64,000 bases of DNA. Source: Oscillospiraceae bacterium. Its GTDB lineage: Bacteria > Bacillota > Clostridia > Oscillospirales > Oscillospiraceae. Numbering within the stretch: the first letter of the stretch is position 1; every line of letters begins with the position of its first letter. The notes under the pieces are model-generated. The model ran no database searches and had not been told where the DNA came from. It saw nothing but the letters and a program-made list of their open reading frames with translations. Below, piece by piece: positions 5,178 to 62,464 of this stretch. Location of the stretch: the NCBI GenBank assembly GCA_009777775.1, contig WRLE01000007.1, positions 62,001-126,000 on the forward strand, written 5' to 3'. Position numbers and translations under genes: made by a program.

Positions 5178-5263
5178 TATGACACCCTGTCCAACAATTA
5201 TATTGTCTAACGAATTAAGTTCACAGCTAAAGCTCGACGCTCCTAACTCCTCAAGAGCTAAGC

Positions 5264-5305
5264 CCTAATTCCTAATTCCTAACTCCTAATTCCTAACTCC
5301 TAATT
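5264..5305. repeat. heptamer tandem repeat (CCTAATT/CCTAACT, six copies)
   Basis: Six consecutive 7-bp units alternate between CCTAATT and CCTAACT in the trmD-rimM gap. The same heptamer recurs near 9681-9740 and 40780-40807. Confidence 0.85.
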
Positions 5306-5311
5306 CAAGAC

Positions 5312-9680: not shown

Positions 9681-9740
9681 CCCAATTCCTAATTCCTCAC
9701 TCCCAATTCCTCACTCCTCACTCCTCACTCCTAATTCCTA
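9681..9740. repeat. heptamer tandem repeat (CCTAATT/CCTCACT)
   Basis: About eight 7-bp units (CCTAATT, CCTCACT, CCCAATT) run continuously into the TAG stop codon of hydA at 9738-9740. This is the same family as 5264-5305 and 40780-40807. Confidence 0.85.
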
Positions 9741-19552: not shown

Positions 19553-19694
19553 TTGCGGATACCCCCAAGTCATAATAGAATGAACAATTAACAATGAACA
19601 ATTAATACTTGTTCGTTGTTAATCGTCGATTGCTAGTCATTCATCAATAATTATCTATTTTTTATCGCATATCGTTGATTGGTTGAAGTTCATC

Positions 19695-19736
19695 GTTCAT
19701 TGTTCATTGTTCATTGTTCATTGTTCATTGTTCATT
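19695..19736. repeat. GTTCATT heptamer tandem repeat, six perfect copies
   Basis: Six identical 7-bp units lie in tandem just downstream of the sahH stop codon. Related but degenerate units sit at 6319-6369. Confidence 0.95.
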
Positions 19737-19741
19737 ATTAA

Positions 19742-21061
19742 TTAGTCCAGTTTCCAGCTGCTTAAATAGACTTTTTGGTCTTCGCTTAGATTGTCTATTG
19801 ATAAGCCGCTGGATTTTAGCTTTTTATTAGCTACATCCATGTCTATTTCCCTTGGGACGGGGATTACATTGGGCGACATGTCTTTGTGATTTTGCGCTAA
19901 ATACCTTGCTGACATTGCTTGAATGGCAAAGGACATATCCATTATTTCCACTGGATGACCATCCCCTGAGGCAAGGTTTACAAGTCTACCTTCTGCTAGA
20001 ACGAAAATTGTGTTGCCATTGTCAAGGGTATAACCCATGATATTCGGCTTTTGCTCTTGCTTTTTTGCGTTTGCCTCCAACCAAGCTACATCCACTTCCA
20101 CATTGAAATGACCAGCATTGCATAAAACAGCTCCATTTTTTATCTTATCGAAATGCTGTGCTGTTATAACATCCTTGCAACCTGTAGCAGTAATGAATAA
20201 ATCACCAATTGAAGCTGCAGCATCCATTGTCATCACTTCAAAACCGTCCATCATCGCTTCCAGAGCCTTCACAGGGTCTATTTCAGTAACAATGATTTTC
20301 GCTCCGAAGCCTTTACCCCTCATGGCGATGCCTTTGCCACACCAACCATAACCGGCAATAACAACGTTTTTACCTGCTACAATAAGGTTGCTTGTTCGAT
20401 TGATACCATCCCAAACGGATTGGCCTGTGCCATATCTATTATCGAAAAGGTATTTGCACTGGGCATCATTGACAGAAACCATAGGAAAAGACAGTGTTCC
20501 ATCAGCTACCATAGAATGTAAACGTTTTATCCCAGTGGTGGTTTCTTCGCAGCCGCCGATGACACCTGGGATAAGGTGCTGCAGCTTGGTGTGTAGTATG
20601 TTCACAAGATCGCCGCCATCATCAATAATGATATTGGGACCAGCTTCAAGAGCCATGGTCAAATGCCTCTCATACTCCTCTCCTGTTGCGCCGTGCCATG
20701 CATATACCTTCATACCCCCAGCAGCTAAAGCAGCGGCAACATCGTCCTGGGTAGACAAGGGATTGCAGCCTGTCGCATACATTATTGCTCCACCAGCTTC
20801 AAGGGTGCGACATAAGCAAGCTGTTTTCGCTTCCATGTGAACGGAAAGGGTTATTTTTATGCCCTCAAAAGGTTTTGTTTTTTCAAATTCCTCTTTCAAA
20901 GCCCGCAACAATGGCATATGTTGCCAAGCCCATGCGATTTTTCTTTCCCCTGAGGGAGCTAATGATATATCTCTTACCAGGCTGTCATGTTCAACAATTT
21001 TTACATCCATAGTAAGCCCGCTCTCAATGGCAGCACTTGCTGATTGTGGATTTCCACTCAT
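19742..21061 (-). CDS. ahcY: S-adenosyl/S-inosyl-homocysteine hydrolase
   Basis: The 439-residue protein is of the SAH hydrolase family, in the short type without the roughly 40-residue insertion of eukaryotic enzymes. Catalytic residues are kept: DDGGDL, EETTTG, the Lys and Asp of KYLFDN, the NAD motif VIAGYGWCGKG, NAGHFNVE and GHP. The adenine-contact segment differs: His75-Met-Glu77-Ala-Lys79, where mammalian enzymes have His55, Thr57 and Glu59. Archaeal-type enzymes with such changes can prefer S-inosylhomocysteine. The start overlaps the stop of the upstream deaminase (ATGA), supporting a deaminase-then-hydrolase route that yields homocysteine plus inosine. Family certain; substrate inferred. 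Confidence 0.9.
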   Translation of the reverse strand: MSGNPQSASAAIESGLTMDVKIVEHDSLVRDISLAPSGERKIAWAWQHMPLLRALKEEFEKTKPFEGIKITLSVHMEAKTACLCRTLEAGGAIMYATGCNPLSTQDDVAAALAAGGMKVYAWHGATGEEYERHLTMALEAGPNIIIDDGGDLVNILHTKLQHLIPGVIGGCEETTTGIKRLHSMVADGTLSFPMVSVNDAQCKYLFDNRYGTGQSVWDGINRTSNLIVAGKNVVIAGYGWCGKGIAMRGKGFGAKIIVTEIDPVKALEAMMDGFEVMTMDAAASIGDLFITATGCKDVITAQHFDKIKNGAVLCNAGHFNVEVDVAWLEANAKKQEQKPNIMGYTLDNGNTIFVLAEGRLVNLASGDGHPVEIMDMSFAIQAMSARYLAQNHKDMSPNVIPVPREIDMDVANKKLKSSGLSIDNLSEDQKVYLSSWKLD

Positions 21062-32530: not shown

Positions 32531-32560
32531 TTGACAGTTTTGCGGGGCTTGTGGTATAGT
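32531..32560 (+). promoter_or_regulatory. promoter of the cobalamin salvage operon
   Basis: TTGACA (32531-32536) and TATAGT (32555-32560) are 18 nt apart, placing the transcript start just ahead of the riboswitch. Confidence 0.75.
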
Positions 32561-32589
32561 CTGTTTCAGCAAAGTTCAATTAAATATCT

Positions 32590-32820
32590 ACAAAACGAAG
32601 GTGTGCGATGACTGCGCTTTTTATAGCGAAATTGTCTGTGCAAGAATAGGGAATCAGGTTTGAATCCTGAGCAGTCCTGCTGCCGTGTTGGCTGCTGGTT
32701 TCGTGTCCTTTTGCGGAGTAATCTGCAATAGTACAACCATTGAGCAAAGACGCTTGAGAAGGTGAAACTAAAGCATAAGCCTTAGCCGGAAGACCTGCCT
32801 CGTTTTCGTACCAGCGAGTA
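32590..32820 (+). ncRNA. adenosylcobalamin riboswitch
   Basis: The aptamer core shows GGGAATCAGGTTTGAATCCT followed by GAGCAGTCCTGCTGCCGTG (32649-32686), the conserved GGGAA...GGUG...CCGC region. The B12 box TTAGCCGGAAGACCTGCCT lies at 32782-32800. It lies directly upstream of cobT-cobU-cobS, the usual targets. A candidate regulated terminator follows at 32915-32945. Boundaries are approximate. Confidence 0.93.
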
Positions 32821-32914
32821 AACAATAACTGGTACAGCGGCTTGCGCCGTTCCGTAGTGGCTTCACAGTGTATGGGGACAATATGGATTGTTATGGATTT
32901 GGATTCATTGTGCG

Positions 32915-32945
32915 AGCGGTATTATATGCCGCTTTTGCGTTTTTC
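32915..32945 (+). terminator. candidate riboswitch-controlled terminator
   Basis: AGCGGT (32915-32920) pairs with GCCGCT (32928-32933), followed by TTTGCGTTTTT. It sits between the cobalamin aptamer and cobT, where ligand-dependent termination would act. Confidence 0.5.
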
Positions 32946-33082: not shown

Positions 33083-34186
33083 ATGTCAAAGGAAAAACTA
33101 AAGGAATACATCTCTCAAATCAAAGGTCTCGATGACGAGGCAGCACAGAGGGCGCAGGAAAGATTGGACTCCCTGGCAAAGCCTCCTGGCAGCCTTGGCA
33201 AGCTCGAGGACATCGCCAAGCATTTGTCAGGTATCAGCGGGCAGATATATTATAATAGTGAAAAACGCTGTGTAATCGTCATGTCCTCTGATAATGGAGT
33301 CGTTGAAGAAGGCGTGTCCTCCACTCCCCAATCTGTGACCTTGGCTCAAACAATAAATTTTGTACGAGGTTTAACCGGAGTTGCTGTTATAGCAAAGCAG
33401 TTCGATACTGATTTAATCGTTGTGGATGTGGGCATCAACGCAGATGTGGATTATCCTGGTATCATTAACAAAAAAATCCGCAAGTCCACTTGGAATCTGG
33501 CGAAACAACATGCAATGACATATGACGAGGCTCTTCAAGCGGTGCTCATTGGCATAGAAACAGCAATTGATGCTGTCAATAATGGCTATACCCTTCTAGG
33601 TGCAGGGGAAATGGGAATCGGAAACACCACCACATCGGCAGCAGTGCTTTGCGCTTTGACGGGTTTTCCAGCAGAGGATGTGGTGGGCAAAGGCGGCGGC
33701 TTGTTGGAAGATGCATATAGGCATAAAATCGATGTGGTGAAAAACGCTGTGAGAGACCACGAGCCAGACCCAGCTGACCCCATTGATGTTTTGGCTAAGG
33801 TTGGCGGTTTCGACCTTGCTGCCATGGCTGGTGTTTTTCTTGGTGGTGCCATAATGCGGGTACCTGTGGTTATAGATGGTTTTATATCAATGGTGGCTGC
33901 CCTTGCTGCCGCCCGTATATCGCCGATAGCAAAAGAATTTATGATTGCTTCCCATGCTTCCTTTGAACAAGGTTTCATCCATGCTGCGGAAGCCTTAGGT
34001 GTCGAGCCATGCTTGATGATGAGTATGCGCCTAGGAGAAGGGAGCGGCTGTCCCATTATGTTTGCTGTGATAGATGCCGCTTGCGGAATGATGAGGGATA
34101 TGGCGACTTTTGCGGAAGCTGACATTAATGATGATTATTTAGATGAGTTGAGAAAGGGCGACCATTTTACAATTAACAAAGACTGA
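33083..34186 (+). CDS. cobT: nicotinate-nucleotide-dimethylbenzimidazole phosphoribosyltransferase
   Basis: CobT activates the lower-ligand base as alpha-ribazole phosphate for cobalamin nucleotide-loop assembly. The 367-residue protein has the N-terminal SLAKPPGSLGKLEDIA, the GAGEMGIGNTTTSAA loop, VGKGGGL and the C-terminal RLGEGSGCP with the catalytic Glu. It is the first gene after the riboswitch; AAAAGGGAG precedes the ATG. cobU and cobS follow. Confidence 0.96.
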   Translation: MSKEKLKEYISQIKGLDDEAAQRAQERLDSLAKPPGSLGKLEDIAKHLSGISGQIYYNSEKRCVIVMSSDNGVVEEGVSSTPQSVTLAQTINFVRGLTGVAVIAKQFDTDLIVVDVGINADVDYPGIINKKIRKSTWNLAKQHAMTYDEALQAVLIGIETAIDAVNNGYTLLGAGEMGIGNTTTSAAVLCALTGFPAEDVVGKGGGLLEDAYRHKIDVVKNAVRDHEPDPADPIDVLAKVGGFDLAAMAGVFLGGAIMRVPVVIDGFISMVAALAAARISPIAKEFMIASHASFEQGFIHAAEALGVEPCLMMSMRLGEGSGCPIMFAVIDAACGMMRDMATFAEADINDDYLDELRKGDHFTINKD

Positions 34187-34229
34187 TTGTGTTGGTAAAA
34201 ATGAAATCATATTGGAGACAAATCAAAAA

Positions 34230-34796
34230 ATGAAAGTTTTCATATCAGGTGGTTGCAAAAACGGTAAGTCATATTATGCCCAACATTTAGCAAAAAGGCA
34301 GCAAAATGATAAGCTTTATTATATAGCTACGATGAGTTCTGTGGACAGCGAAGATGACCAGCGCATCGCCAGGCACCAAGATGAGCGAGAAGGTTGGGGT
34401 TTTGAAACAATTGAGCAAGCAGTCAATATTGAAGACATACTGAATGTCTGCGACTCGACTGGCTCCTTTCTCCTCGATAGTGTAACAGCACTTCTCGCCA
34501 ACGAAATGTTCAAAAGTGATGGAAGTGTGGATTTCGATGCATCTTCACGAATCATCGATGGTATAAATGTGTTATTGGAAAAAGTGGAAAACATAGTCAT
34601 TGTCTCCGATTATATCTACAGTGATGCCATGGAATATGACGAACTCACCGAACAATACCGTAAGGCTCTTGCCCAAATCGACAGAGCCACTGTGAAAATG
34701 TGCGATGTGGTACTGGAAGTTGCATATTCCACCGTCACCCTTCACCGCTCAACGGAAGATGGGCGCTGGGAGTCTCTTTCAGAAGGTTTGCGATGA
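34230..34796 (+). CDS. cobU: adenosylcobinamide kinase/guanylyltransferase (CobU family)
   Basis: The 188-residue protein phosphorylates and then guanylylates adenosylcobinamide. The P-loop is MKVFISGGCKNGKSYYAQ, and RIARHQDERE holds the histidine that is guanylylated in CobU. The C-terminal region is atypical: SDYIYSDAMEYDELTEQYR replaces the usual SNEVG...GIVP segment. The ATG at 34230 follows GGAGA. Its end overlaps cobS by 4 nt (ATGA). A second, shorter CobU-like gene lies 870 bp downstream. Confidence 0.88.
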   Translation: MKVFISGGCKNGKSYYAQHLAKRQQNDKLYYIATMSSVDSEDDQRIARHQDEREGWGFETIEQAVNIEDILNVCDSTGSFLLDSVTALLANEMFKSDGSVDFDASSRIIDGINVLLEKVENIVIVSDYIYSDAMEYDELTEQYRKALAQIDRATVKMCDVVLEVAYSTVTLHRSTEDGRWESLSEGLR

Positions 34797-35551
34797 AAAG
34801 GATATTTAGAGCTTTCTACATGACCCTAGGAATGTTTTGCGCTATTCCCCTACCCTGGCTTATATGGGATGACGATTGCGTTATCCTTATGATGCCTTGC
34901 TTCCCCTTTGTGGGTTTGGTCATCGGCGGAATTTGGTGGCTAGCTGCAAAGCTTTTGCTTCTGTCAACAATCCACACCGCTCTATCAGCAGCGATTCTGA
35001 CTTTGGTTATGCTCTCTGCTGCTGGGTTTATTCACCTAGATGGTTATATGGATACCAGCGATGCTGTTTTATCCCGCAGAGACCACGAGGAAAAAATCCG
35101 CATATTAAAAGACCCCCATACAGGCTCCTTTTCTGTGATAATGGTTGCATTGCTATTTCTTTTCCAATATGCTGCAACATTTGCGTTCCTCGACAAGGGT
35201 ACCCATGCGCTTCTTCTGATATTAATTGCCGTTATTTCCCGTTGCGGCTCTGCATATACGACCCTGGTTCTCACCCCCGCTCCCCACAGCAGCAATGTGA
35301 ATATGTATAGGAAAGTAAGCATAAAACTATTATATAAATCCATTGGACCCTTAATAACTATATTATCAACTGTCATAGCTTTTTATATCGCAGGAATCGG
35401 TGGAGTAATAGTTTGCGCAGCAGCTGTCCTGGGATATGGTGCGGCAATGGCATATGTTTACATCGATTTAAAAGGAGTCTCAGGCGACTTGGCAGGATTT
35501 GCTCTGGTCATCAGCGAACTATGCGGTTTGATAGCTTTGGCTATAATATAG
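34793..35551 (+). CDS. cobS: adenosylcobinamide-GDP ribazoletransferase (cobalamin synthase)
   Basis: CobS joins adenosylcobinamide-GDP and alpha-ribazole(-phosphate) in the membrane. The 252-residue protein has about six membrane segments and the signature HLDGYMDTSDAVLSRR...ILKDPHTGSFSV. The ATG overlaps the cobU stop, so the two are translationally coupled. No cbi genes for corrin-ring synthesis are present in the window, consistent with salvage. Confidence 0.95.
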   Translation: MKRIFRAFYMTLGMFCAIPLPWLIWDDDCVILMMPCFPFVGLVIGGIWWLAAKLLLLSTIHTALSAAILTLVMLSAAGFIHLDGYMDTSDAVLSRRDHEEKIRILKDPHTGSFSVIMVALLFLFQYAATFAFLDKGTHALLLILIAVISRCGSAYTTLVLTPAPHSSNVNMYRKVSIKLLYKSIGPLITILSTVIAFYIAGIGGVIVCAAAVLGYGAAMAYVYIDLKGVSGDLAGFALVISELCGLIALAII

Positions 35552-35662: not shown

Positions 35663-36043
35663 ATGAAATTAGTTTTCGGTGGAGCATATCAGGGAAAGCT
35701 GGAGTATGCCATGGAAGCATATGAAGTATCGGAAACTGATATATACCGCTGCAGTGAGGATAATACTGACTTTCCCCAGGCTGCGAAAATTGTCTACGAG
35801 CTGGATAAATGGATACTCGCCCTTATTAAAGCTGGCATTGATACTGATACTGCTATTTCTGATTTCATGAAAAATAATACAGACACTTGTATCATAGCAA
35901 ATGATATATCAAGCGGTATCGTCCCCTATGAACCCCAATTGAGACAGTGGCGCGAAGCGGTGGGAAGAGCACTGGCTGCTATTGCAAAAGAATCTGACGA
36001 GGTTGTGCGTCTCTTTTGTGGCATCCCCACGAGACTTGTTTAA
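35663..36043 (+). CDS. short CobU-like protein lacking the guanylylation-site segment
   Basis: The 126-residue protein begins with a CobU-type P-loop (MKLVFGGAYQGKLEYAMEAY) and ends with the conserved CobU C-terminus (CIIANDISSGIVPYEPQLRQ, then WREAVGRALAAIAKESDEVV). The middle third is missing, including the RH motif with the guanylylated histidine. CobU proteins are usually about 180 residues. It complements the upstream CobU, which has the His but a divergent C-terminus. It abuts the cobC-like gene (stop TAA then ATG with no gap). It may be a subunit, a kinase-only form or a relic. Confidence 0.75.
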   Translation: MKLVFGGAYQGKLEYAMEAYEVSETDIYRCSEDNTDFPQAAKIVYELDKWILALIKAGIDTDTAISDFMKNNTDTCIIANDISSGIVPYEPQLRQWREAVGRALAAIAKESDEVVRLFCGIPTRLV

Positions 36044-36625
36044 ATGATTATTCACTTGTTGCGCCATGGCAGAACTGCTCCCAATATTGAAGGTCTATTT
36101 TGCGGAAGTACCGATGTTCCCCTTTCCTCTGAGGGAATCGCAGAGTTGGAAGAACTCATCTCACAGGATATTTACCCAAAAGCGCAAATTTATTTCACCA
36201 GTGGCTTGCTTCGAGCAAAGCAAACAGCAAATATTATATACGGCGATATACCCATGCTGGCTCTTGATGATTTAGATGAATACAACTTTGGTATATATGA
36301 GATGAAAAGCTTTGATGAAATCAAAGAAGATGATGATTTGAAGCTTTGGGTCAACGATGAAACTGGTGTAATAAAATGTCCCGGTGGCGAAAGCCAACAA
36401 GAATTTGTCCAGCGAGTATTAAGAGGCTATGAATCTGTGCTTACTCTGACGAATGAAGAGAGTATAAAATCTGCCATGCTTGTGTTCCACGGAGGTCCGA
36501 TTGTCCGTATAATGCAGCATCTATTTCCCGAAGAAGGCATCTTCTTCAATTGGCAACCTGATAATGGGCATGGATACTCCATTGATATTTCATCGGACAG
36601 CCCAGTAATATTACAGAAGTTTTGA
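36044..36625 (+). CDS. cobC: histidine phosphatase, alpha-ribazole phosphatase-like
   Basis: The 193-residue protein has the phosphoglycerate-mutase-fold motif IIHLLRHGRTAPN with the phosphohistidine, then YFTSGLLRAKQTANII, and the second catalytic His in AMLVFHGGPIVRIM. In a cobalamin operon such enzymes remove the phosphate from alpha-ribazole phosphate (or cobalamin phosphate). Assignment to CobC rests on this context. It begins immediately after the short CobU-like gene. Confidence 0.85.
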   Translation: MIIHLLRHGRTAPNIEGLFCGSTDVPLSSEGIAELEELISQDIYPKAQIYFTSGLLRAKQTANIIYGDIPMLALDDLDEYNFGIYEMKSFDEIKEDDDLKLWVNDETGVIKCPGGESQQEFVQRVLRGYESVLTLTNEESIKSAMLVFHGGPIVRIMQHLFPEEGIFFNWQPDNGHGYSIDISSDSPVILQKF

Positions 36626-36752: not shown

Positions 36753-37706
36753 ATGAAAAAACTATCAAAAACAATCGCTCTGATCCTCACTATTGCCGCG
36801 CTTTTTGCATTGGCTGCTTGTGACAACAGCTCACCTGCAACAAGCTCCACAGAACCCGATGATGTCACCGTAGAACGCATTGATTATGACAGGGATGGAA
36901 ACACCATCACACTACCAGATGAAATAAATAAAATCATATCAATTGGTCCATCAAATACCGAGGTTTTAGTTGCCTTGGGCTATGGGGACAAGATAATCGC
37001 AACAGATGCTTATTCCAGCAACGTCCCTGGAATCAAAGAAGGTATATCCGATTTTTCCATGATGGCAAACGATGGCGAATTAATTATCGAAATGGACCCT
37101 GATGTGATTTTTGTCACAGGAATGAGCAGAGCTGGTGGAGACGACCCTTATGCAGTAATCGCCCAGGCAGGTATTTGTCTAATATATATGCCATCCAGCG
37201 TTAGCATAGAGGGTATAAAAGAAGACATACGCTATATGGCAGCAGTCTTATCCGTTGAAGAAACTGGAGAAGAAATAATCGCCAATATGGAAGCCGAAAT
37301 AGAAAGAATCTTGGAAATTACAAGCGCAGCTAGCGAAACAAAAAGAGTCTATTTTGAAATCGCCGCTGCACCTAATATGTATAGTTTCGGCAGTGGTACC
37401 TTTTTGCATGAAATGATTGAAATGCTGGGTGGCGAAAACATATTTGGTGAAACCATCAGCTGGGCTTCTGTTTCCGATGAAGCGATCCTCGATGCAGACC
37501 CTGAAGTTATTTTAACCACAGTGAACTATATCGACAATCCCATAGATGAAATAAAATCAAGGGATGGTTGGAATAATGTTACTGCGATTGCCAACGATGC
37601 TGTTTACTACATCAGCACCGATGCCAGTAATCGCCCAAGCCACAACATTGTTATTGCAATGGAGCAAATAGCCCGCGCCATTCACCCTGAACTCTTCGAA
37701 GGGTAA
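36753..37706 (+). CDS. btuF: cobalamin (or corrinoid) ABC transporter substrate-binding lipoprotein
   Basis: The 317-residue lipoprotein has a signal peptide with lipobox LAAC (Cys23), then a Ser/Thr linker and a class III periplasmic-binding fold (ISIGPSNTEVLVALGYGDKI, VIFVTG, GGENIFG). It belongs to the BtuF/FepB family; cobalamin rather than iron is inferred from the riboswitch-led operon. AAGGAG lies 10 nt upstream of the ATG. Lgt at 2872 would modify it. Confidence 0.85.
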   Translation: MKKLSKTIALILTIAALFALAACDNSSPATSSTEPDDVTVERIDYDRDGNTITLPDEINKIISIGPSNTEVLVALGYGDKIIATDAYSSNVPGIKEGISDFSMMANDGELIIEMDPDVIFVTGMSRAGGDDPYAVIAQAGICLIYMPSSVSIEGIKEDIRYMAAVLSVEETGEEIIANMEAEIERILEITSAASETKRVYFEIAAAPNMYSFGSGTFLHEMIEMLGGENIFGETISWASVSDEAILDADPEVILTTVNYIDNPIDEIKSRDGWNNVTAIANDAVYYISTDASNRPSHNIVIAMEQIARAIHPELFEG

Positions 37707-37881: not shown

Positions 37882-38898
37882 TTGAAAGCAAAGGTTATAG
37901 TCACAATAGTTTTATCACTTGTTATTATTGTGATAGGCGTAACATTTGGTAGCGTTTGGGTCCCCCCTGATACAGTATGGCACATTATACGCAACAAAGT
38001 GTTTAGCGTTCCCCTACCCGAATCCGTCAGTCAAACATCCGTTGCAATTGTGTGGAATCTCAGATTGCCTCGAGCCTTGCTTGCCTTTATCGTAGGTGCT
38101 TGCCTATCTATCAGTGGAGCTGTGATGCAGTCTGTTTTAAGAAATCCCCTTGCCTCATCGTATACTTTGGGTGTTTCCTCAGGTGCTTCTTTAGGAGCTT
38201 GCATTGTCATCATGTTTGGTGTTACCCTGCCCTTTCTCCCTTTGATGACCCTCCCGCTCATTGGCTTTGCCTTTGGCTTGGGAACGATACTCTTGGCAGT
38301 TGCATTTGCCTCTCGCCTTGACGGACAAATGGAGAACAACACAATCATACTAACTGGTATGGTATTTTCCCTCTTTGTCAATGCCCTAACCACCCTATTA
38401 TCTGCAATATCAAGGGAACACTTGCAACGATTGGTATTCTGGCAGATGGGAAGCTTTTCCGCTCGTGGTTGGACTCCTGTTGCCATTCTCGCGCCAATAA
38501 TAGTCGCTGGATTGCTTTATGTCCTGCACTATAACCGCGAGCTGGATATGATGACCTTCGGCGAAGAACAAGCAAAAACAATGGGTGTAAACATCAAGCG
38601 CATCAAATGGATTTTGCTCGTAACTTCCGCTGCTCTCACAGGGAGCGCAATCGCTTTCGTTGGTGTAATAGGCTTTGTGGATTTGGTTGCTCCCCATATA
38701 ATTCGCAGAATCTTTGGCTCATCCCACAGGTATGTGCTGCCAATGTCCGCCTTTTTCGGCGGAGCTTTCATGGTAATATGCGACTTAGTTGCTCGAACAG
38801 TGGTTTCACCAGCAGAACTACCAGTGGGTGCCGTAACAGCAATGATAGGAGCTCCCTTCTTTGCATATATATATTTTGGAAGAAAAAATAAAGCTTAA
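37882..38898 (+). CDS. btuC: FecCD/BtuC-family ABC transporter permease
   Basis: The 338-residue membrane protein has about nine or ten helices and family motifs LRLPRALLAFIVGACLSISG, MQSVLRNPLASSYTLGVSSG, and the ATPase-contact region GVIGFVDLVAPHIIRR. The start is TTG 37882. It lies between btuF and btuD and forms the channel of the corrinoid importer. Confidence 0.9.
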   Translation: MKAKVIVTIVLSLVIIVIGVTFGSVWVPPDTVWHIIRNKVFSVPLPESVSQTSVAIVWNLRLPRALLAFIVGACLSISGAVMQSVLRNPLASSYTLGVSSGASLGACIVIMFGVTLPFLPLMTLPLIGFAFGLGTILLAVAFASRLDGQMENNTIILTGMVFSLFVNALTTLLSAISREHLQRLVFWQMGSFSARGWTPVAILAPIIVAGLLYVLHYNRELDMMTFGEEQAKTMGVNIKRIKWILLVTSAALTGSAIAFVGVIGFVDLVAPHIIRRIFGSSHRYVLPMSAFFGGAFMVICDLVARTVVSPAELPVGAVTAMIGAPFFAYIYFGRKNKA

Positions 38899-38950
38899 AT
38901 TAACAATCGCCACAAGCCTAAAAGATCTGTTATATGGAGGTAAAGATAAA

Positions 38951-39754
38951 ATGTTGACATTATCAAATGTATCGGTGGGATACAACGGTATAAATGTGAT
39001 AAAAAATGTAAATATGCATGTGAATTATAATGAAAACCTCTCCATCATCGGACCAAACGGCTGTGGAAAAACCACATTGCTAAAAGCAGTCGCCAACATA
39101 CTCCCATATAGCGGCGAGATTGAAATCGCAGGTACTTCCATAAAAAAAATGAAGCACAAAGAAATCTCCTTGCGTATAGCCATGCTTACACAAATGTCTG
39201 GTATATATTTTTCATATACGGTATTCGATACTGTGATGATGGGACGGTATTTACACATAAAAGACAAGCTTTTGGGTCTCCCCTCAGAAGCGGATAAAGA
39301 GGCAGTATTAACTTGCCTCGATGCAGTTGACCTTCTGGAACAAAAGGATAGAATGATAACCACTCTATCTGGTGGGCAATTGCAAAGGGTGTTTTTAGCA
39401 AGGACATTGGTGCAAGAGCCTGAAGTTATACTCCTTGATGAACCTACAAACCACTTGGATTTGAAATATCAAATCGAATTGGTGGAATACTTGAAGAAAT
39501 GGGCATCTGAGGGCAGCCGTGTCGTGGTGGGCGTGATGCACGACATCAATCTGGCTATGAGACTCAGTGATGACATTTTGGTGCTAAAAGACGGCGAGAT
39601 TCAAGTCCAAGGAAAAGCCGACGAGGTTATAACAGACAGCCTACTGGAATATGTATACGATATTGATGTTGCCGAATATATGCGCGAATCCCTCCAACGC
39701 TGGCAGTGTATCGGTGAAAATAATAAAAATCTCAGCGTACCATCTGCTATTTAG
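38951..39754 (+). CDS. btuD: ABC transporter ATP-binding protein (BtuD/FepC type)
   Basis: The 267-residue ATPase has Walker A IIGPNGCGKTTLL, Q-loop MLTQMSGIYF, signature LSGGQLQRVFLARTLVQEP, Walker B VILLDEPTNHLD and switch His in VVGVMHDINLAM. GGAGG at 38936-38940 marks the ATG at 38951. It completes the btuFCD importer. Confidence 0.92.
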   Translation: MLTLSNVSVGYNGINVIKNVNMHVNYNENLSIIGPNGCGKTTLLKAVANILPYSGEIEIAGTSIKKMKHKEISLRIAMLTQMSGIYFSYTVFDTVMMGRYLHIKDKLLGLPSEADKEAVLTCLDAVDLLEQKDRMITTLSGGQLQRVFLARTLVQEPEVILLDEPTNHLDLKYQIELVEYLKKWASEGSRVVVGVMHDINLAMRLSDDILVLKDGEIQVQGKADEVITDSLLEYVYDIDVAEYMRESLQRWQCIGENNKNLSVPSAI

Positions 39755-39826: not shown

Positions 39827-40684
39827 ATGGCTAAAAAAATAATGCTTCAAGGTACATCATCCGGTGCTGGAAAAACCACCATTGCCCTTGCTCTTTGTCG
39901 AATCTTTCACCAAGACGGTTTCAAAGTAGCACCCTTTAAATCGCAAAATGTTACCTCCAACACTTCAAAGACAAAAAATGGTGATGAAATCGCCATTTCC
40001 CAGCTCCTACAAGCATATGCCGCAGGAGCCGAACCCAGCGCGCAAATGAACCCTGTTGTGTTGAATATGTCTGGTGGTGAAGGCACCCAAGTCATTCTCA
40101 ATGGCAAGCCATATGGGAGAGTAAATTCCCAAGAATTGAGTGAAATGAAAATACCAGTGCTCCTGCCTGAAATTTTAAAAGCATACGAAAGCCTTGATGA
40201 ACAGTATGATATTATTGTAATCGAAGGCGCAGGAAGCCCTGTGGAATTAAATCTAAACACCAATGATATTGTCAACATGGGTATTGCCACCCGATTGGAT
40301 GCTCCCGTTCTTCTCATTGGCGACATCGACAGAGGTGGAGTATTCGCTTCACTCTATGGTACCATTGCCCTGTATACCGATGAAGAACGCGCTCTGGTAA
40401 AAGGCACCATCGTGAATCGTTTCAAAGGCGATCTCCAACGCTTTGAAGATGGCAAAGCACTCTTGGAGTCTATTTGCAAAATCCCAGTAGCTGGAGTTAT
40501 TCCCTATATAGATATAGATTTGCCAGAAGAGGACGATTTGGTAGCAAGACCAGCAGGACCCGTCCTCCAAAACACCGCCTTAACAGACAGCACCCCCTTC
40601 GCCCCCGAGTTCGACCGAATAGCAGAAATAATCAGACAAGCCCTTGATATGGAACTGATATATAGGATAATTAATAATGAATAA
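39827..40684 (+). CDS. cobyric acid synthase (CbiP/CobQ) lacking the glutamine amidotransferase domain
   Basis: CbiP normally amidates four corrin carboxylates with ATP and glutamine and is about 500 residues. This 285-residue version has the complete N-terminal dethiobiotin-synthetase-like kinase domain: MLQGTSSGAGKTTIALALCR, PFKSQNVTSNTS, VIEGAGSPVELNL, LLIGDIDRGGVFASL, GTIVNRFKGD. The roughly 200-residue class I glutaminase domain is absent. The tail FAPEFDRIAEIIRQALDMEL resembles the very C-terminus of full CbiP. The stop lies in an AT-rich repeat. A DUF71 enzyme, possibly an amide ligase, follows. It could use ammonia or a partner glutaminase, or be a decayed gene. Confidence 0.8.
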   Translation: MAKKIMLQGTSSGAGKTTIALALCRIFHQDGFKVAPFKSQNVTSNTSKTKNGDEIAISQLLQAYAAGAEPSAQMNPVVLNMSGGEGTQVILNGKPYGRVNSQELSEMKIPVLLPEILKAYESLDEQYDIIVIEGAGSPVELNLNTNDIVNMGIATRLDAPVLLIGDIDRGGVFASLYGTIALYTDEERALVKGTIVNRFKGDLQRFEDGKALLESICKIPVAGVIPYIDIDLPEEDDLVARPAGPVLQNTALTDSTPFAPEFDRIAEIIRQALDMELIYRIINNE

Positions 40685-40723
40685 TGAATAATTATCCAAA
40701 ACGCAACACAATACAATGACATT

Positions 40724-40751
40724 CGTAGGGCGCGGCATCCCTGACGCGCCG
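40724..40751. repeat. REP-like element CGTAGGGCGCGGC...GACGCGCCG
   Basis: A 28-bp element with self-complementary GGCGCG/CGCGCC arms. The same sequence with two changes ends the tandem array at 62390-62464. Confidence 0.65.
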
Positions 40752-40779
40752 CTTAGGAAACAATTAACAACGAACAACT

Positions 40780-40807
40780 CCTAATTCCTAATTCCTAATT
40801 CCTAATT
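40780..40807. repeat. CCTAATT heptamer tandem repeat, four copies
   Basis: Four perfect 7-bp units just before the DUF71 gene, the same unit as at 5264-5305 and 9681-9740. Confidence 0.9.
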
Positions 40808-40828
40808 AACTTTGGAGGTTTATTTTAC

Positions 40829-41494
40829 ATGGAAAATCTAGTTGGTAAAAAATTCGTGGCTTCTTTTAGTGGCGGTAAGGACAGTACTTTGTCTTTGTAT
40901 CGGGCTATCAATGCGGGGTTGGTACCTGCGGGCTTGATAACGACGTATAATGTCGATTCCAAACGAACTTGGTTTCACGGGACAAGTGAAGTTTTGCTTG
41001 GTAAGGTTGCTGAGTCCTTGGGTATTCCTTTGAATTTCATACGGACAATAGGTGATGAGTATACCGATAACTTTGAAAAAGCTCTCCTGGAGGCAAAGGA
41101 AAATGGCGTGGAAGTCTGCGTTTTCGGCGACATCGATCTTCAAGTACATTTCGATTGGTGTGAGGAACGCTGTGAAAACACCGGAATGATTGCCTATTTC
41201 CCCTTGAAACACGAAGATAGAAAATCCGTTGTTTACGATTTCATCGATTCTGGCTTTTCAACTATCATTACCATTGTGGATACCACAAGAGTATCTGACG
41301 AGTTTCTTGGCAAGACATTGACCAGAGAAGTGGTGGATGCCATAGAAGCAGCTGGTGCTGATATTTGCGGAGAAAATGGTGAATACCATACCTTTGTCTA
41401 CGATGGACCCCTCTTCAAAAACAAAATCGATTTCACCATCAAAGAAAGGCTTACCCAAGATAAATACGCTCTCTTGCATATTGACGTTCAATAA
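40829..41494 (+). CDS. DUF71 (diphthine-ammonia ligase-like) ATP pyrophosphatase
   Basis: The 221-residue protein has the PP-loop FSGGKDSTLSLYRA at residues about 12-25, FGDIDLQVHFDWCEERCENT, and the C-terminal GENGEYHTFVYDGPLF motif diagnostic of DUF71/COG2102. Bacteria make no diphthamide; a bacterial subgroup has been predicted to act in B12 salvage from its genomic neighbours. Its place after cbiP and btuFCD fits that subgroup. A strong ribosome-binding site precedes the ATG. The reaction is unproven; ATP-dependent amide formation is plausible. Confidence 0.85.
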   Translation: MENLVGKKFVASFSGGKDSTLSLYRAINAGLVPAGLITTYNVDSKRTWFHGTSEVLLGKVAESLGIPLNFIRTIGDEYTDNFEKALLEAKENGVEVCVFGDIDLQVHFDWCEERCENTGMIAYFPLKHEDRKSVVYDFIDSGFSTIITIVDTTRVSDEFLGKTLTREVVDAIEAAGADICGENGEYHTFVYDGPLFKNKIDFTIKERLTQDKYALLHIDVQ

Positions 41495-50193: not shown

Positions 50194-50829
50194 TTAGGAA
50201 ACCAATGATACAGCTTTAACAGCGGCTGCGCCGGCGTCTACTGTATATGCATCTCCACCGATTTCGTCACAGAACTCTTGAGTAATCGGTGCACCGCCGA
50301 CCATGATTTTAGCAGTGTTTTTAACACCAGCATCGATCAAGGCTTTGACAGTGTTTCTCATGGAATCCATTGTGGTGGTGAGAAGAGCTGAGCAAGCAAC
50401 AATCTTGGTATCGGGATTCTCTTTGAAGGTCTCAACGAACTTCTCTGCAGGTACGTCGACTCCGAGGTCAATGACTTCAAAGCCAGCGGACTCGATCATC
50501 AGCGCAACGAGGTTCTTGCCGATGTCATGGAGGTCACCGGCGACTGTGCCGATGATGCATTTGCCAAGCGCGCCAACTGCGCCGGCGGAGAGGTTTGGAC
50601 GAAGTACTTCGACGCCCAGTTTCATTGTTTTTGCCGCTACGAGCATCTCAGGAACGAAAACTTCGTTCGCTTGGAATTTCGCGCCGACAACGCCCATGGC
50701 TGCGATCATGCCATCGTTGAGGATTGCATTGGGATCGTCACCCTCTGCAAGGGCCTCTTTGATGAGATCCTCGATGAGCTTTACTTTGCCGTTTTCTACG
50801 GCCGCTGAGATTTCTGCGATTTTGGACAT
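50194..50829 (-). CDS. methyltransferase corrinoid protein (MtaC/MtbC type)
   Basis: The 211-residue protein has an N-terminal four-helix cap (residues about 1-90) and a B12-binding Rossmann domain with the lower-ligand histidine motif GDLHDIGKNLVALM, then SALLTTTMDSM and VGGAP. It carries the methyl group on cobalt between a methyl donor system and tetrahydrofolate. GGAGGAGAT fixes the ATG at 50829. It is the last gene of the operon after the DHPS-like methyltransferase, its likely partner. Confidence 0.93.
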   Translation of the reverse strand: MSKIAEISAAVENGKVKLIEDLIKEALAEGDDPNAILNDGMIAAMGVVGAKFQANEVFVPEMLVAAKTMKLGVEVLRPNLSAGAVGALGKCIIGTVAGDLHDIGKNLVALMIESAGFEVIDLGVDVPAEKFVETFKENPDTKIVACSALLTTTMDSMRNTVKALIDAGVKNTAKIMVGGAPITQEFCDEIGGDAYTVDAGAAAVKAVSLVS

Positions 50830-50893
50830 GGTATCTCCTCCTGTTAAAAAAATAAAATATAAATTGGGAAACTCAAAATAATTGGTTGTGGTG

Positions 50894-51703
50894 TTATGCT
50901 GTAAAAATACCCTCGCGGAAAGCAGTTGTATACTCGGAACAATAGTCATCGAGACCCATCATAGCTTCTGCTGCAAGAATCACACCACGTAAATCCTTGC
51001 TCAAAGGATCCAGAACTCCACTATTCATACCAGCGCTGATTGCCAGAGCTGCGAATGCTTGGTTTACAAGCCTGCGTACGGGAAGGTTAAATGAAATATT
51101 TGAAATTGCGCCGGAAATGTAAACTGTAGGATAATTTGTTTTGATATATGTCATGACTTCGATGAGCATTGAAATGCCTTCGCCTTCATCGGTTGTACAT
51201 AGCATTTCGATGAGGGGGTCGATGTGTATGCGACTCTCATCTATACCATAACTCTTCGCTTTTTCCATGACTGTTTCGAAAATCTCTATGCGCTTTGCTG
51301 CTGTCTTGGGTATGCCAGTATCATCGCAAAGTAGAGCCATGACTTGCCATTGGCTATATTCGGGTTTTGCAAGCACTGGGAATGCAATGTCGAACTTGCC
51401 GCCTTCTCCGGATACTGAATTGAAAAGACCAGGTCTATTGCAATAGTCCAGAGCATTTATAATGACATTAACATCAGGGGAGTCAACGGATATTGGTAAA
51501 TCTGTAACGCTTTGTACTAAATCTATCATCCATTTGAGGGTTTCCAATTCCCCTTCGTTGACTGAGGCGCAAACATCGATGAAGCTGGAACCGGCATTTG
51601 CCTGTTGCCTTGCTATTCTTTTTATGTATGCTTCATCCCTGGCAGCTATGGCTTTTCCACATGCTGGAATTGATCCATTAAGTTTCTCGGCGATTATTAT
51701 CAT
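50894..51703 (-). CDS. methyltetrahydrofolate:corrinoid methyltransferase (AcsE/MtgA type)
   Basis: The 269-residue TIM-barrel protein belongs to the pterin-binding (DHPS-like) methyltransferases: IIIAEKLNGSIP, SSFIDVCASVNEGELE, LPISVDSPDVNVI, RIHIDPLIEML and ISNISFNLP. It moves a methyl group between methyl-THF and a corrinoid protein, here presumably the next gene. Direction is not determined by sequence. It follows folD by 18 nt in the C1 operon. Confidence 0.9.
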   Translation of the reverse strand: MIIIAEKLNGSIPACGKAIAARDEAYIKRIARQQANAGSSFIDVCASVNEGELETLKWMIDLVQSVTDLPISVDSPDVNVIINALDYCNRPGLFNSVSGEGGKFDIAFPVLAKPEYSQWQVMALLCDDTGIPKTAAKRIEIFETVMEKAKSYGIDESRIHIDPLIEMLCTTDEGEGISMLIEVMTYIKTNYPTVYISGAISNISFNLPVRRLVNQAFAALAISAGMNSGVLDPLSKDLRGVILAAEAMMGLDDYCSEYTTAFREGIFTA

Positions 51704-62389: not shown

Positions 62390-62464
62390 CGTAGGGTGCG
62401 GCTTCGTAGGACGCGGCTTCGTAGAGCGCGGCTTCGTAGGGCGCGGCTTCGTAGGGCGCGGCTT
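62390..62464. repeat. 15-bp tandem repeat CGTAGGGCGCGGCTT, five copies
   Basis: Five 15-bp units with 0-2 changes each run from 62390 to 62464, followed by CCCAGACGCGCCG. The last unit plus this end matches the REP-like element at 40724-40751, so the array is an expanded left half of that element. Confidence 0.9.

Follow-up and report, generated by a model that had tools for sequence, protein, structure and literature searches.

The cbiP gene of the window, by which we mean the whole 64,000-nucleotide stretch of Oscillospiraceae DNA that was analysed, encodes a kinase-only cobyric acid synthase, a form maintained by selection in several lineages; as a description of the gene product this is well supported. 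CbiP (CobQ) amidates the four remaining side chains of the corrinoid to give cobyric acid. Our main reading, to which we assign a probability of about 0.62, is that the window protein is a functional cobyric acid synthase without a glutaminase domain, putatively using free ammonia, and that the DUF71 gene beside it is a separate gene. Both genes lie in the following cluster.

32582..32816, + strand: cobalamin riboswitch ahead of the cluster (Rfam RF00174 at 69.3 bits, gathering score 31.5)
33083..34186, + strand: cobT (Pfam DBI_PRT 9e-124; TIGR03160 above cut-off)
34212..34796, + strand: cobU (Pfam CobU 1.1e-28)
34700..35551, + strand: cobS (Pfam CobS 1.6e-37; coordinates are those of the ORF, the true start being probably later)
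35663..36043, + strand: short CobU-like protein of 126 aa (PF02283 matched only at its C-terminal positions 105-168 of 168)
36044..36625, + strand: cobC-like phosphatase (histidine-phosphatase-type sequence, read by eye from the ORF)
36753..37706, + strand: btuF-like binding protein (Pfam Peripla_BP_2 5.3e-31; NCBIfam BtuF PRK03379.1 75.5 bits, below cut-off)
37882..38898, + strand: btuC-like permease (Pfam FecCD 1.6e-98; best NCBIfam match BtuC PRK09535.1, below cut-off)
38861..39754, + strand: btuD-like ATPase (Pfam ABC_tran 7.3e-32; true start probably later; named from its neighbours)
39827..40684, + strand: kinase-only cbiP, 285 aa (BioD-like ATP domain, short linker and C-terminal two-helix tail; no glutaminase domain)
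40685..40828, + strand: intergenic gap of 144 bases with TCCTAAT repeats
40829..41494, + strand: DUF71-B12 ATP-pyrophosphatase, 221 aa (PF01902 2.5e-38; ENGEYH motif)

The run behind the riboswitch thus reads cobT-cobU-cobS-cobU-like-cobC-btuF-btuC-btuD-cbiP-DUF71, with cbiP and DUF71 at its end, and from gene order and strand it probably forms a single transcript. The riboswitch is flanked by a promoter-like site (32531-32560, 11/12 matches) and a terminator-like hairpin (32914-32934), terminator-like sites being no more frequent in the window scan than in shuffles. The transporter genes are named by Pfam type and context, as none of their NCBIfam matches reaches its curated cut-off; for the ATPase the best of these were haem and iron-dicitrate ATPases, followed by the corrinoid ATPase PRK09536.1, all below cut-off. 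The cluster of G014 holds a gene similar to the short CobU-like one (L015:149-796), with a repeated GVNDTFQ-type stretch. The gap between cbiP and DUF71 holds four TCCTAAT copies (40779-40807) and one CGTAGGGCGCGGC, which recurs in the window at 62435 and 62450; heptamer arrays of the CTCCTAA, TCCTAAT and GTTCATT types occur throughout the window (5240-5306, 9681-9740, 19688-19743 and 40779-40807). One gene resembling corrinoid-binding proteins and one resembling methyltetrahydrofolate methyltransferases were seen by eye at 50194-51703 and are possible users of the cofactor.

The window protein matched the CbiP family NF001989 over positions 1-237 of 480 only, with 322.7 bits against a cut-off of 273, and scored 282.4 bits against TIGR00313, below the cut-off of 309.9. 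A Pfam scan of the protein gave no match to GATase_3 (PF07685), and the bioD equivalog TIGR00347 reached 26.2 bits against a cut-off of 83.3. The sequence-only reading, which had described a gene that keeps the ATP-binding domain and the C-terminal tail and has lost the glutaminase domain, is therefore confirmed in this respect. It had also named a full-length cbiP elsewhere in the genome as one part of what would speak against it; an NF001989 search of the same genome found no second cbiP. The short form shares the ATP-binding motifs, the C-terminal tail and the B12 gene context of the full-length enzymes (NF001989, TIGR00313), but lacks their glutaminase domain and is changed at A43, L44 and R57, which are nearly invariant in them.

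In a predicted model of the short CbiP, dethiobiotin synthetase (1dbs, residues 1-224) aligned to residues 2-278, a BioD fold over the whole length of the protein; these ranges give the first and last aligned residues only. BioD and the kinase-only CbiP share 18% identity; BioD carboxylates diaminopelargonate and does not amidate corrinoids. Sequence searches turned up no solved CbiP structure. The predicted structures suggest that full-length CbiP has a dethiobiotin-synthetase-like fold into which the glutaminase is set before the last helices, and this would explain why the kinase-only forms keep a recognisable C-terminal tail in 19/19 cases. In the alignment, the region equivalent to residues 270-465 of the full-length F_L014 was absent from more than 90% of 18 short forms.

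The same architecture recurs outside the window, as the sequence-only reading had expected, and was found at 19 loci, the window's own among them, from the genus to the phylum. Within the genus a CbiP match was obtained in 4/19 genomes, in each case to a kinase-only form. In the family, 128/300 genomes have a match; the strong matches outside the genus lie in frames of 465-861 aa, with the exceptions of G080 (339), G197 (407), G196 (two pieces, 214 + 341) and G327 (223 aa). On inspection the frames of G080 and G197 had reached the glutaminase part where the fetched sequence stops; G196 and G327 are given by frame length. In a survey of the phylum a CbiP match was present in 350/398 genomes, in 222 of them above the cut-off. 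Nineteen genomes with half-size or odd scores, picked by eye, were re-searched; 14 proved to be kinase-only, their open frames being 280-357 aa long, and with the window's own genome, itself among the 398, the total is 15/222. The five excluded were G685, which lacks the N-terminus, and the fragments G493, G547, G383 and G587, which lie at a contig end or have internal stops. The cbiP remains of G383 (C1:187192-188615) and G587 (C132:2034-3319) are in pieces, some with internal stops, and look like real decay, in contrast to the intact short forms. Among the best 80 of 594 confirmed loci a CbiP frame was present in 79, and 76 of these 79 have a GATase motif; L174, on a contig as long as that of G014, and L252 are kinase-only, and L218 breaks off where its stretch ends. 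In a plasmid collection, an Acetoanaerobium match with near-full query coverage, among the 5 listed of 183, proved to be a full-length CbiP of 506 aa.

One named strain, Peptostreptococcus canis DSM 27025, also has a kinase-only cbiP, in a cluster that reads by eye cobT-cobU-cobS-cobC-cbiP-cbiA-cbiB-cobD-...-cbiC-cbiD. Read by eye, 18/19 short-cbiP loci lie among B12 or tetrapyrrole genes; at the remaining one, that of G617, none were seen in the stretch around the gene. Two genomes, G585 (L152:1490-2296) and G416 (L153:9109-9918), have a second, divergent kinase-only CbiP-like gene in tandem after the first, in which by eye other residues stand at the positions of the P-loop lysine, the FK lysine and the EGAG glutamate; from its sequence this second copy could be a partner subunit without activity. 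The open-access PubMed Central literature searched gave no account of a CbiP lacking its glutaminase.

We built a maximum-likelihood tree from shared columns of 18 short and 60 full-length forms; the truncated row F_L068 was dropped and three loci had no usable frame. In this tree several short forms group with full-length enzymes from their own family: the four short forms of family f51 stand beside f51 full-length enzymes (99/100), G617 stands beside F_L162 of family f125 (98/96), and G011 and G017 stand beside F_L012 (97/84). With weaker support the pairs G591+G424 and G471+G506, and the group of G399, G643, G711, G585 and G416, lie near full-length enzymes, and the window form (G000) and G014 make up a long branch of their own. 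A single origin of the short forms was rejected on these 78 taxa (AU p=6.7e-9), and Fitch parsimony gave 7 label changes against a mean of 16.4 and a minimum of 11 for shuffled labels. A second tree of 72 taxa, from which 16 full-length rows were thinned out and to which P. canis and nine full-length rows were added, placed P. canis beside Romboutsia at 87%, required 8 Fitch label changes and again rejected a single origin (AU p=6.0e-5). The constrained trees came from fast searches for the 78 taxa and a full search for the 72. For the four congeners taken by themselves monophyly was not rejected (p=0.067), so there may have been one loss or two within the genus. The figure of about eight losses is an estimate, since Fitch parsimony counts changes irrespective of direction and the deep nodes are weak; that these were losses of the glutaminase rather than gains is the direction we infer.

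The kinase part that remains has changed at the same places in different lineages. The comparison used 83 kinase columns with at least 95% conservation among the 60 full-length enzymes, which lean to the window's own family. The short forms keep 87% of these columns on average, and the EGAGSP and N150-M151 motifs are invariant in all 18. However, A43 is kept in none of the 18, L44 and R57 in one each and Q88 in five, and each of N45, S46, G56 and A58 survives in 8 or 9. Of the full-length enzymes 57/60 have A43, 59/60 have L44, and 60/60 have R57 and Q88; a further sample of 45 full-length enzymes, partly separate from these, shows no variation at L44, R57 and Q88 and carries A43 in at least 90%. 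The exceptions to the signature are the window protein, which keeps Q88, G711, which keeps L44, and G471, which keeps R57. Over seven lineages defined by hand, A43 has changed in seven and L44 and R57 in six. None of 20,000 random placements reached the observed sharing (mean maximum 2.9; placement was uniform and ignores rate differences between sites). P. canis, which lay outside the set in which the signature was found, differs at A43, L44, R57 and Q88 as well.

A clue to the role of the changed loop comes from CTP synthase, a relative of the CbiP kinase fold that has a glutaminase. In the Drosophila enzyme, residues 50-58 are described as part of the ammonia tunnel (PMC8325340), and R57 of CbiP lies at a similar distance past the active-site lysine, a comparison based on spacing and not on residue alignment. 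Read in this light, the changed loop would be the ammonia entrance or the surface at which the glutaminase makes contact and docks. Loss of the same domain, together with changes at the same spots in unrelated lineages, suggests that the short enzyme works and uses ammonia.

We propose the following mechanism. The glutaminase would have been excised from its insertion site, which on the predicted structures would leave a complete one-domain enzyme. The short CbiP would still activate corrinoid carboxylates with ATP and would then take free ammonia in place of ammonia derived from glutamine, free ammonia being its most likely predicted nitrogen source. A43, L44, R57 and often Q88 would belong to the former glutaminase docking surface or ammonia entrance, and DUF71 would be a separate DUF71-B12 gene of the riboswitch-headed cluster and not a substitute for the lost domain. 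The system MurT/GatD likewise performs ATP-dependent amidation with an unfused glutaminase, although there the glutaminase is a separate subunit and the synthetase is of the Mur-ligase type. As reported in PMC3266927, MurT with an inactive GatD amidates in vitro with free ammonia; the same source still calls the interaction with the glutaminase subunit crucial for overall activity, which counts against our proposal. A more specific version, in which the kinase-only CbiPs are glutamine-independent ammonia users that arose by about eight clean excisions with the same ammonia-entry loop remodelled each time, has in our estimate only a small chance of being right in full.

The alternative that survives best, although we consider it unlikely, is that a glutaminase is recruited in trans, either the domain of CbiA or another amidotransferase, much as MurT works with GatD. 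In P. canis the gene next to the short cbiP is cbiA with intact glutaminase motifs, and in G011 a CbiA-like GATase is present as well, truncated at the contig end. However, in the window's own genome GATase_3 (PF07685) matched at two places only; by eye one is GatD, with a MurT-like gene as its neighbour, and the other HisH, and with neither CbiA nor an unassigned GATase_3 protein found a partner glutaminase was rejected there. In G399, G507, G595, G615 and G643 the inspected GATase_3-like locus, one per genome, is likewise GatD beside a MurT-like gene, with weak further matches existing in G399, G643 and G617. The loss of residues that are nearly fixed in glutaminase-linked enzymes also points away from a kept interface.

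That CbiA was not found in the assembly bears on the pathway as a whole. By eye, except for CbiB (PF03186) and the methylases (PF00590), L254 of this genome carries cbiX/K, hemL, hemB, cobA-hemD, hemC, cbiJ, cbiH, hemA, cbiG, cbiF, cbiL and cbiD, and L080 carries cobD, cbiB, cobalt-transport genes, cbiC and cbiET, so that the anaerobic corrin pathway appears nearly complete apart from CbiA. The de novo route may be incomplete in this assembly, possibly because of an assembly gap, as a transposase-like ORF stands next to the end of the contig that carries cbiET. If the de novo pathway is working, no enzyme other than the short CbiP was found that could carry out the late amidations.

A second alternative, proposed in the sequence-only reading and slightly less probable than a glutaminase in trans, is that the substrate has changed and the enzyme re-amidates damaged corrinoids during salvage. 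Many of the loci are salvage-type clusters with btuFCD, cobU, cobS, cobC, cbiB or cobD, and the changed loop follows the active-site lysine, so that its changes could alter the choice of substrate instead of the route of ammonia. Against this, in G615, G634 and G595 (three of the four f51 genomes), P. canis and G011 the short cbiP is embedded in de novo cbi or hem genes or adjoins them, and the invariance of EGAGSP and N150-M151 in all 18 short forms also argues against a new substrate.

It had further been suggested that DUF71 and the kinase-only CbiP act as one functional pair that replaces full-length CbiP, which we now regard as very improbable. The two genes are adjacent in the window and in G014 (2/19 loci) and lie in the same cluster in G471, but DUF71 was not found at the other 16/19 loci (stretches of 3.9 to 64 kb). 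Among 20 genomes searched whole, DUF71 was present only in G000, G014 and G018; the congeners G011 and G017 have a short CbiP and no DUF71 match genome-wide, whereas G018, another congener, has DUF71 and no CbiP match. The DUF71 gene of G018 (L082:7180-7881) carries ENGEYH; that genome has no CbiB match, and no B12 genes were seen on the 8.1-kb contig. The window protein also carries ENGEYH, the form of ENGE(F/Y)H found in place of the Dph6 motif and given in PMC3541065 as the motif of the DUF71-B12 subgroup, and its context of btuFCD-like and cob genes behind a cobalamin riboswitch fits the same subgroup. According to that source 75/102 DUF71-B12 genes adjoin B12 transporter genes, a neighbourhood thus expected irrespective of CbiP, and the proposed role resembles that of bacterial CbiZ. 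The window gene shares its motif and B12 transport context with the DUF71-B12 proteins outlined in PMC3541065; DUF71-B12 is not generally linked to kinase-only CbiP. The pairing is better explained by a shared salvage cluster than by a functional pair.

Finally, the suggestion that cbiP is decaying is rejected. Its stop lies in an AT-rich repeat and CbiA was not found in the assembly, yet the protein ends at the natural end of full-length CbiPs, and the same architecture recurs with intact catalytic motifs in a congener at 63% identity as well as in other families. Of eight short-form pairs, six gave dN/dS ratios (NG86), namely 0.06, 0.14, 0.09, 0.09, 0.17 and 0.15; G634 is a member of three pairs. 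All six ratios come from short forms other than the window gene, because dS was saturated in both pairs that contain it (G000/G014 and G000/G011).

The main reading, an ammonia-using cobyric acid synthase formed by loss of a domain, makes the kinase-only CbiPs a natural, replicated experiment on the coupling of glutaminase and synthetase, in which a domain was lost by excision of an insertion and not by truncation. The positions that changed in parallel may mark the ammonia path or the docking surface of CbiP. Genomes that carry only the kinase form may be misjudged where B12 capacity is annotated on the expectation of a full-length CbiP, and P. canis DSM 27025 is a named strain in which ammonia-dependent corrinoid amidation could be tested.
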